64,000 nucleotides of DNA from Actinobacteria bacterium HGW-Actinobacteria-7 (GTDB taxonomy: Bacteria > Actinomycetota > Coriobacteriia > Anaerosomatales > PHET01): the NCBI GenBank assembly GCA_002841275.1, contig PHET01000003.1:1-64000 (forward strand), in the 5' to 3' direction. Position numbers and translations under genes: made by a program. Positions within the stretch are counted from its first letter, which is position 1; every line of letters begins with the position of its first letter. Positions 2,696 through 5,387 of the stretch are shown here, one piece after another. Under the pieces are notes generated by a model, which was not told where the DNA came from, did no database searches, and saw nothing but the letters and a program-made list of their open reading frames with translations.

Positions 2696-3498
2696 GATTC
2701 CACTCGCACGAGGTGACCTTCGGCGAACGGGGTGCCCGAGTCCACGCTCATACGCGCCCACAGGGTGTGCGGCAGCCCGAGGTCCGCAAGGTATAGGTTG
2801 TCGAGGCCGCGAAGGCCCGTCTTGGGAAGCGCGAGGGTGAGGGTAGCGGCCGGTTCGACAGCGCCCTCGAAGTCGTATCCCGAAGGGAAGTCGAGAGAGA
2901 TTGGCGTGTGGTCGTTGGCCCACTGCGCAAGTTCAGCCGCGCGCTCGCGCAACGGCCCAGAAAGGCCATATCCCACGAGGGCATCGACCGCGACGTCGCC
3001 GCTCGGGCGATCCGACGGCATGATCCCCATTGCGGCCAGCGTGGCAAGGTGATGTCTCGCCGCCTCGCCGAGGCGGTCCGATGCGAGCACGACTTCGACA
3101 TCACGACCTCGCGCGACGAGATGGCGCACGGCGCACAGCCCACCGCCTCCGTTGTTGCCGCCGCCGGCAAGCACCGTGACCCTGCCCTCGGGCGCGGCCC
3201 GCATCACGAGTTCGGCGAGGGCGGATCCCGCGTGCTCCATCATCTGCAGGAGCGTGATGCCGAACACCTCGATGGCGAGCCGGTCGGCTTCGACCATCTG
3301 CTCGACAGTGAGCCACGTTAGCGAGTCGGCAGACGCCGACGGCAAGAACTCGGTCCCGGCGAGATGCGGCATCACCTGGGCCGCGTACCACAGCGGCCAC
3401 TCGGGATCCTCGCCACCGGTCGCGGCGAAGGCATCATGATGGGCGTCAGCGACTTCGCGCAGCAGCTTCGCGAGGCGGCCGGTTGCGTCAGTCGGCAT
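2692..3498 (-). CDS. nnrE: NAD(P)H-hydrate epimerase (YjeF_N domain), stand-alone
   Basis: Epimerises damaged NAD(P)HX so that a dehydratase can repair it. A 268-residue protein with the YjeF_N fold: an N-terminal helix region with WLTVEQMVEADRLAIEVFGI, a nucleotide-binding loop VLAGGGNNGGGGLCAVRHL, and the catalytic-site segment SLDFPSGYDFEG. The loop has NNGGGG where many homologues have NNGGDG. No NnrD dehydratase domain is attached. The ATG at 3498 overlaps the upstream gene by 11 nt; the longer frame to 3624 starts with low-complexity Arg sequence. Coupling to rpiA places cofactor repair next to NADPH-producing pathway genes. Confidence 0.8.
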   Translation of the reverse strand: MPTDATGRLAKLLREVADAHHDAFAATGGEDPEWPLWYAAQVMPHLAGTEFLPSASADSLTWLTVEQMVEADRLAIEVFGITLLQMMEHAGSALAELVMRAAPEGRVTVLAGGGNNGGGGLCAVRHLVARGRDVEVVLASDRLGEAARHHLATLAAMGIMPSDRPSGDVAVDALVGYGLSGPLRERAAELAQWANDHTPISLDFPSGYDFEGAVEPAATLTLALPKTGLRGLDNLYLADLGLPHTLWARMSVDSGTPFAEGHLVRVES

Positions 3499-4084
3499 CG
3501 GTGAAGATCTCTGCGAGGCTCTTGCCGTACGGCCAGAAGCTCGAGCGGTCGCCCGCCTCCCATCGCGCGCGCAACTCCGGCGTGTCGATCGCGTAGTCGG
3601 GGCGTATCTCAGCGGTGATCTCACGAAGGTCGATGTGAAGCTCGTGGATGGTCGGACGCCCCCAGTACCAGTAGCCGTTGTAGATCTTGTGGATCACCAG
3701 GCCCGGCTTGAGAACGATCGTGTAAGGAATCATCGGGTTGTGCATGGTGTCGGTGTACTCGGCGATGTCCAAGTCGCGAGCTACCTCTCGGCTTGGATCA
3801 TGCAGAAACGTCCAGTGGGCGCCGACCCCGGAGCGCAGCTCGTTGACCTCGAGCAGCGAGTCAGTGGTGATGGTGACCAGTCGGGCGTAGCCCACGTCGA
3901 TCTTCTGGCAGAACTCGACGAGACCGTAGAGCTGCTGGCGGTCCTTGGGGCAGAAGTGTCCCCGCATCAGAGTGAGGATGAGCGGGTCGTCTCCTTGGAG
4001 CTTGGAAAGCCGGCGGGGCTGATTGCGGTGATCGCGCAGTTCGTAGTCGGGGAACGTTGCGCCTGGGAATATGTCAGGTCTCAT
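3488..4084 (-). CDS. Peroxiredoxin-like (AhpC/TSA) thioredoxin-fold protein
   Basis: A 198-residue protein. FPGATFPDYELRDHRNQP then ILTLMRGHFCPKDRQQL gives the AhpC/TSA start with a single candidate redox Cys at about residue 45, in GHFCPKD. HDPSREVARDLDI and MIPYTIVLKPGLVIHKIYNGYW match the later strands of the fold. No CxxC is present, so a one-Cys peroxidase-like or regulatory role is possible. The start overlaps the STAS gene stop by ATGA, and its end overlaps the epimerase start, so it is inside the same operon. Electron donor unknown. Confidence 0.75.
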   Translation of the reverse strand: MRPDIFPGATFPDYELRDHRNQPRRLSKLQGDDPLILTLMRGHFCPKDRQQLYGLVEFCQKIDVGYARLVTITTDSLLEVNELRSGVGAHWTFLHDPSREVARDLDIAEYTDTMHNPMIPYTIVLKPGLVIHKIYNGYWYWGRPTIHELHIDLREITAEIRPDYAIDTPELRARWEAGDRSSFWPYGKSLAEIFTDAD

Positions 4085-4485
4085 TCTGCCTCCATCGCTG
4101 CTAATCGATTGGCTATGCCGTCGGAGCGGCCGTACTCCCGCACAGGCTCAGGCAGCATGAGAAGAGCCGCCTCGCGTGATTCCGCTTGGGGGAAGACCGC
4201 GCTCAGCCGGGTGAGTTCGAGCAGCCGATCGGTGATCGGACCGGTAATCAGCACGACGCTACCCCCCTGTGTCGTGCACTTCTTGTTGAACGACAACAAG
4301 AGGCCCAACGCCGAGCTGTCCATATACGCGACGCACGACAGGTCCAGAAGCACCGAGCAGTTGGGCGATGAGAGGATGCGATCGAGCGCCATACGGAACC
4401 TGGCAGCTTCGTCATAGGCCAGTTCACCGTCTACGCGGAGGGTCCAGTAGTTGTCCTGATCTGTGAGGTCGATAGTGAGTGCCAT
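4081..4485 (-). CDS. STAS-domain anti-sigma-factor antagonist
   Basis: A 134-residue single STAS domain. The conserved segment CVAYMDSSALGLLLSF contains the serine that kinases phosphorylate in SpoIIAA/RsbV-like proteins, and VVLITGPITDRLLELTRL matches the end of the domain. Such proteins bind anti-sigma kinases to release a sigma factor; no kinase or sigma gene is adjacent here. GAGAGG lies 6 nt before the ATG at 4485, favouring it over the ATG at 4491. It is the first gene of the minus-strand operon; its promoter should lie in the 150-bp gap shared with the divergent selenoprotein-like gene. Confidence 0.85.
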   Translation of the reverse strand: MALTIDLTDQDNYWTLRVDGELAYDEAARFRMALDRILSSPNCSVLLDLSCVAYMDSSALGLLLSFNKKCTTQGGSVVLITGPITDRLLELTRLSAVFPQAESREAALLMLPEPVREYGRSDGIANRLAAMEAE

Positions 4486-4637
4486 CGGCATCCTCTCGGA
4501 GCGTGTGTTGAGAGTGCTGGGTCCGCCTGATACGCCGTGGGCGTCTTCTCGTCCCGCAGACGCCTAGTGGGTACATACCCCTGATGCTACACAGTGTTCG
4601 GCGCATTCAGCCCAACTACGACGAGAGGTTGTGCGAT

Positions 4638-5387
4638 ATGCCGCCAGAAGGAATCGCACTCGGAACGCTGGCATTCATGAGGACGTACCCGTGGAGGCGC
4701 ATCGACCCCGTTCCGTGGACGCCTCTCGCGAAGCCGCTGGCGGAGTGCCGAGTCGCCTTGGTGTCATCCGCGGCCACCATGCTCCCCGGTGACGATCCGT
4801 TCGACTACTCGGGCAAGGCCGGCGACCCGACGTTTCGCCTCATCCCGTCTGGCACGGATCCCCAGACACTTGTCGAGACGCATCCGAGCTCGAGTTTCGA
4901 TCACTCCGGCATGGCCGAGGACATGAACGTCGCGTTTCCTCTTGACCGGATCCGCGAGCTGGCCGAAAGCGGCAGGATCGGAGGGGTCGCGCCCCGGCAC
5001 GTTTCGTTCGAGGGGTACTTGCCGGCTCCTGGCCGCCTGCGCAAGGAAACGGCTCCCGAAGCGGCGCGTCTTCTCGCGGAGGACGGCGTCGACGTCGCAC
5101 TGTTGTTCCCTGTTTGACCGATCTGTCCCCAGACCGTGAGTCTGGTCGCCGCAGCACTCGAGCGGGAAGGAATCTCTACCGTATGTGTGCACCCCGTCAG
5201 GTTCGTCGCGGAGCGCATGCGCGCCCCCAGGTCGCTATTGGTGCCGTTTCCTCTTGGCTACCCCCTCGGACGACCGAACGACCCCGCACTGCAGCGGGAC
5301 GTGATCGAGGCGATGTTGGCCATGCTTGAGGACCAGGCACTGACCGCGCCCGCTTTGGTCGAGTTCCCGGCTGAGAATGGCTGGTGA
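4638..5387 (+). CDS. GrdB-family protein with in-frame UGA read as selenocysteine
   Basis: Related to selenoprotein B of glycine/sarcosine/betaine and D-proline reductases. The frame runs through a TGA at 5115-5117 and continues to TGA 5385-5387, giving 249 residues with Sec at about position 160. The context is LLFPV-Sec-PICPQTVSLV, a U-x-x-C redox motif where relatives carry Sec or Cys. The sequence after the UGA (alternating helix and strand, FPLGYPLGRPND, then a C-terminal helix) is clearly coding. A SECIS-like hairpin follows the UGA. GAGAGG 9 nt before the ATG at 4638 favours this start; an ATG at 4584 is possible. It is shorter than GrdB, has no grd neighbours, and its substrate is unknown. 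Confidence 0.8.
5115..5145 (+). promoter_or_regulatory. Candidate bacterial SECIS element
   Basis: The UGA at 5115-5117 is followed after 11 nt by CCAGAC (5129-5134), a 5-nt loop CGTGA, and GTCTGG (5140-5145), a perfect 6-bp stem inside the coding region. In bacteria the SelB-binding hairpin lies directly 3' of the Sec codon at about this distance. Folding of the lower stem was not computed. Confidence 0.65.

Follow-up and report, generated by a model that had tools for sequence, protein, structure and literature searches.

In D-proline and glycine reductases, the selenocysteine (Sec) subunit works together with a pyruvoyl subunit, PrdA or GrdE. The chemistry of the GrdB/PrdB superfamily is the reductive cleavage of a carbon-heteroatom bond by a selenolate nucleophile. 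GrdB is marked by the motif UxxCxxC (PMC13188914). 'PrdB' selenoproteins with a UxxC motif were already described in the Sargasso Sea survey, and GOS contains them in abundance. The survey descriptions count 42 of them in the Sargasso Sea set and 235 in GOS, and place the type among the most abundant Sec proteins of environmental surveys (PMC1088965, PMC2398784). The PrdB/GrdB-like gene considered here lies in a stretch of 64,000 nucleotides from Actinobacteria bacterium HGW-Actinobacteria-7, hereafter the window, and its features are collected in Table 1.

Table 1. Positions, within the window, of the PrdB/GrdB-like gene and its elements.
Feature	Position	Strand	Remarks
PrdB/GrdB-like selenoprotein gene	4638..5387	+	249 residues, UGA 5115 read as Sec; homologous along its entire length, before and after the TGA
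Likely ribosome-binding site GAGAGG	4623..4628	+	9 nt 5' of the ATG; sequence inspection
In-frame UGA, Sec160 of the U-P-I-C motif	5115..5117	+	aligned codons TGA 38, TGC (Cys) 7
Cys163, UxxC partner residue	5124..5126	+	invariant in the 31-sequence alignment
Bacterial SECIS-like hairpin	5129..5145	+	6-bp stem, 5-nt loop CGUGA, 11 nt past the UGA

Recoding of the in-frame UGA

The selenoprotein frame runs from ATG 4638 to a terminal TGA at 5385-5387, and its internal TGA falls in the redox motif FPV-U160-P-I-C163. Without recoding, the frame falls into two ORFs (4584-5117 and 5136-5387). The original prediction, which read a single frame with V-U-P-I-C across the TGA and protein-like sequence after it, agrees with the homologues, which are conserved on both sides of this codon. 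A contaminant gene is unlikely, because the G+C content equals that of the flanks (0.655 vs 0.653) and the contig extends over at least 64 kb.

A genome search found relatives in 79 of 397 genomes of the phylum, nearly all with one internal TGA, and their identity to the window protein is about 50% at best. At the DNA level, 45 non-redundant copies from one phylum, the window included, were compared; at the position of U160, 38 copies (again counting the window) have TGA and the remaining 7 have TGC, with no other codon. Relatives were expected to have Sec or Cys at this position, and the homologue check bore this out, with no homologues ending at the UGA. Because all 45 copies have TGA or TGC, chance and sequencing error are excluded for practical purposes. 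The residues D95, P101, U/C160, T181, and G211 are invariant in the same 31-sequence alignment as C163. Of eight named loci in a separate collection, among them a Rubrobacter MAG and members of Acidobacteriota and Chloroflexota, seven have TGA and one has TGC; at least one of the eight is the same contig as an already-read genome. The TGC, in an Acidobacteriota MAG, is one more Cys form. These loci were found by scanning with a 4-row alignment, the 31-row alignment being too diverse for scanning. Cys forms are scattered over several separate positions in the tree, and Sec/Cys exchange has therefore happened repeatedly.

Two variations on the family plan were also observed. Two relatives of family f20 (L080:7072-7083 and L086:6817-6828, in genomes G183 and G150) have another in-frame TGA in place of the partner Cys codon, and the resulting U-P-I-U reads as a di-Sec UxxU form of the PrdB-like protein. 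One branch (L052-L059, L074, and L079) encodes proteins of 370-415 aa with a C-terminal extra region of about 150 aa, which had no Pfam match in the one member scanned (L055).

The predicted hairpin, 11 nt from the UGA, lies exactly at its expected position and has the sequence CCAGAC-CGUGA-GUCUGG, with stem arms at 5129-5134 and 5140-5145. Its fold as a single sequence is not significant (z = -0.33), so comparative evidence carries the claim. In a fixed register, all six stem pairs are intact in 29 of the 38 TGA copies, which average 5.68 pairs against 3.73 in synonymous-codon shuffles encoding the same protein; the seven Cys copies average 3.43 against 3.08. The covariation score is 0.623, compared with 0.186 +/- 0.027 in shuffles, none of 500 reaching it, and at most 0.098 in slid-strand controls. 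Overall, 94.9% of alignment cells are paired in the stem, and both-sided changes occur at four pairs. These comparisons indicate that the hairpin is selected beyond coding constraint, and in Sec copies only. The suggested folding and SECIS check thus came out in favour of a hairpin through covariation and shuffling, whereas the lone fold gave nothing and an Rfam search of the window matched no family.

The genome of the window (2.53 Mb, 38 contigs, 100% complete) has all of selA, selB, selC, and selD, as had been proposed for checking. Contig C34 (L018) ends with selD, selA, and the first part of selB, consecutive and in the same direction; selB continues at the end of contig C2 (L017), which shares an identical overlap with C34 (RAQVADELNKAKLERLKIGTETAFI). 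Contig C2 also has tRNA-Sec, with anticodon TCA. Among 40 genomes carrying the gene, tRNA-Sec scored above the Rfam cut-off in 38; there was no match in the other two (G251 and G188), which have TGA copies and are both fragmented drafts. The selD gene (L018:1861-2907) has an in-frame TGA of its own, in SSKAG-U-AAKW, and by this reading also encodes a selenoprotein. Beside tRNA-Sec lies a multihaem, CxxCH-rich cytochrome-like frame (L017:6298-8043).

A TGA is, by default, a standard stop codon, and the unremarkable lone-sequence fold of the hairpin would suit an ordinary stop, or decay or a sequencing error of TGC, followed by a remnant or a separate gene. Against this stand the 37 other divergent copies that share the TGA, the seven with Cys, the conserved protein past the TGA, a covarying hairpin that accompanies TGA only, and the complete Sec machinery of the genome. 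An ordinary stop is exceedingly improbable, and the Sec/Cys pattern refutes it for practical purposes. Because the aligned codon is TGA or TGC only, the hairpin covaries, and selD, selA, selB, and tRNA-Sec are all present, the gene, as judged by computation alone, almost certainly encodes a selenoprotein.

Family placement, partner subunits, and gene surroundings

The PrdB model TIGR04483 gave 140.1 bits over residues 26-234, without reaching its equivalog cut-off of 300 bits. The window protein scored 26.9 bits with PF07355 (GRDB), above the curated cut-off of 22, and relatives scored 41.8 and 47.6 bits. The GrdB/F/H models gave 35-47 bits (36.7 for TIGR01917, with a cut-off of 602), and none of the NCBIfam models reached its cut-off for this protein. 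The motif U-P-I-C-P-Q-T has the UxxC of PrdB, and the third Cys of UxxCxxC is absent. Because TIGR04483 matches best, no NCBIfam cut-off is reached, and UxxC occurs without the third Cys, the protein is placed by its profile matches and motif as a PrdB-like member of the GrdB/PrdB superfamily, not as an established PrdB or GrdB. The original description as GrdB-like was right about the superfamily, but the scores, 140 bits for PrdB and 37 bits for GrdB, put the protein nearer to PrdB; its remark that the gene is shorter than GrdB is accurate (249 aa vs about 430 aa).

Profile searches with PF09338 (GrdE/PrdA) and TIGR04480 (PrdA) found no match in the genome of the window. Among the 40 genomes carrying the gene, which include drafts, each model matched in one, weakly for TIGR04480, and both matches are at a single place in genome G355, leaving PrdA/GrdE undetected in 39 of 40. 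This match adjoins a separate, distant GrdB copy (C11:29416-30048) and thus serves as a positive control that the partner searches work. A PF04723 search for GrdA, which had no such control, gave no match in the genome of the window. Because PrdA/GrdE went undetected in 39 of 40 genomes, a role in D-proline reductase is unlikely, and by these profile searches the protein does not qualify as a member of that enzyme. A stand-alone role, without a PrdA/GrdE pyruvoyl subunit, is very likely.

No neighbour was common to all lineages at the 41 loci examined. An FAD disulfide oxidoreductase (PRK06370/MerA/lipoamide-dehydrogenase-like) is found within a few genes at seven of them (L077, L063, L070, L071, L085, L075, and L088), which represent at least three families, most coming from one. 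Two candidates for a conserved operon were set aside: ychF and a DUF6391 gene flank the PrdB-like gene in one family only (f30), and a metallo-beta-lactamase-fold neighbour occurs in three related genomes. The pentose-phosphate genes beside the window gene, once taken to suggest that its substrate may be new, do not share an operon with it and are not found again near any relative; they therefore have no bearing on the substrate and appear to be incidental. The earlier suggestion of a new substrate is nevertheless plausible on another ground, because the obligatory pyruvoyl partner subunits were undetected. In the window, an AhpC/TSA-family gene (MRGHFCPKDRQQL) and a STAS-domain gene form an apparent operon (3488-4491, minus strand) divergent from the selenoprotein gene. 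At another locus, a relative of the window gene converges with a peroxiredoxin-like frame (L067:8249-8800, minus strand) that contains a TGA in RGTW-U-PHC; this frame is likely another UxxC selenoprotein.

None of 68 other genomes of the same order has a relative. A search of 400 genomes of the class gave, apart from this gene, only GrdB-length proteins (432-503 aa; 23-29% identical), in 11 genomes. Within the order, tRNA-Sec occurs in 52 of 69 genomes, which makes Sec use an old trait of the lineage; given this and the lack of relatives in the order, the gene was probably acquired horizontally. In the tree, the window protein lies, without firm support, near a mixed Acidobacteriota/actinobacterial clade and a second actinobacterial clade.

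Proposed mechanism and rival chemistries

In the proposed mechanism, SelB would bind the hairpin past UGA 5115 and deliver Sec-tRNA(Sec), which would make residue 160 the nucleophile of a Sec160-Pro-Ile-Cys163 site at a helix N-terminus. The Sec160 selenolate would attack an oxidised or electrophilic substrate, Cys163 would resolve the resulting intermediate through a selenenyl-sulfide, and the enzyme would presumably be regenerated by a flavin disulfide reductase or a thioredoxin-type donor. In the very confidently predicted structure (m099f66fcf8cb, from window 4638-5384; pLDDT 95.4), the segment U160-C163 is flanked by strand 153-157 and helix 163-176. A Foldseek search of the PDB with this model gave no match at E <= 0.001, so there is no mechanism to borrow from structure, and the fold of the GrdB/PrdB superfamily may be unsolved. 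Two PDB sequence matches were dismissed as chance, one to a designed protein made of weak repeats (E = 0.003) and one to a glutaredoxin over CxxC (E = 0.6). That a genuine selenoprotein, SelB- and hairpin-dependent delivery of a nucleophilic Sec160, and a PrdB-like branch acting without PrdA/GrdE all hold together is likely.

The nature of the reaction is a separate matter. A subunit of D-proline (or glycine, betaine, or sarcosine) reductase, paired with a pyruvoyl subunit and acting on an amino acid, would explain why TIGR04483 (PrdB) is the curated profile that fits best, with 140 bits over residues 26-234, why length and UxxC motif are those of PrdB, and why the survey descriptions call such sequences PrdB (PMC1088965, PMC2398784). 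That score is less than half of the 300-bit cut-off, however, PrdA, GrdE, and GrdA were not found in the gene's own genome nor PrdA/GrdE in 39 of 40 that carry it, and no reductase operon surrounds any copy read, which leaves this assignment very improbable. The main rival to an oxidoreductase is a stand-alone selenoenzyme whose selenolate reductively cleaves a carbon-heteroatom bond in a small molecule bound without a pyruvoyl cofactor. It matches the superfamily chemistry, the conserved non-redox residues H82, D95, R67, T181, and G211 suggest a specific substrate pocket, and no PDB fold match links the protein to thioredoxin-like proteins. However, no neighbouring pathway points to a substrate, and UxxC, the invariant resolving Cys, and the disulfide oxidoreductases nearby in some lineages fit disulfide chemistry equally; reductive cleavage is thus possible but rather doubtful. 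By motif and analogy, a stand-alone selenol/thiol oxidoreductase appears most likely, and for disulfide- or peroxide-type chemistry in particular the same grounds tip the balance slightly in favour.

Comparison with described systems

The hairpin resembles a bacterial SECIS of the fdhF type in being a coding-region hairpin directly 3' of the UGA, at an offset of 11 nt and with a short G/U-containing loop; it differs in having no Rfam match, and its binding by SelB is presumed. Stems persist where the codon is TGA and have decayed in Cys copies, which makes the family well suited to clean tests of Sec/Cys exchange. The GrdB, GrdF, and GrdH proteins (PF07355, TIGR01917, TIGR01918) belong to the same superfamily and have Sec at the equivalent place. 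In contrast to them, the window protein matches only the C-terminal part of their profiles of about 430 aa, has UPIC-PQT without the third Cys, and comes from a genome in which GrdE and GrdA were not found. PrdB (TIGR04483) is nearer in length (238 positions, against 249 residues), in the extent of its alignment, and in its UxxC motif, but the score falls short (140 < 300 bits) and PrdA went undetected in the genome of the window and in 39 of 40 genomes that carry relatives.

The environmental surveys took over the name of D-proline reductase, and their descriptions of these sequences do not report whether partner subunits are present (PMC1088965, PMC2398784). UxxC 'PrdB' selenoproteins were thus already known; what is new is that the reductase name appears unfit for the short branch. 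PrdA/GrdE are absent from nearly all searched genomes, so that a D-proline reductase function is probably wrong for this branch and the annotation of PrdB-type selenoproteins is an inherited one. The balance leans modestly towards the environmental 'PrdB' proteins being no D-proline reductase subunits but a selenoenzyme family of their own, stand-alone and with an undescribed reaction, passed horizontally between phyla with its own SECIS and sometimes in a UxxU form. As the survey descriptions have it, the Sargasso Sea and GOS 'PrdB' proteins are of the pfam07355 type, with UxxC, abundant Sec forms, and Cys homologues (PMC1088965, PMC2398784), and they very probably represent the same short branch as the window protein.
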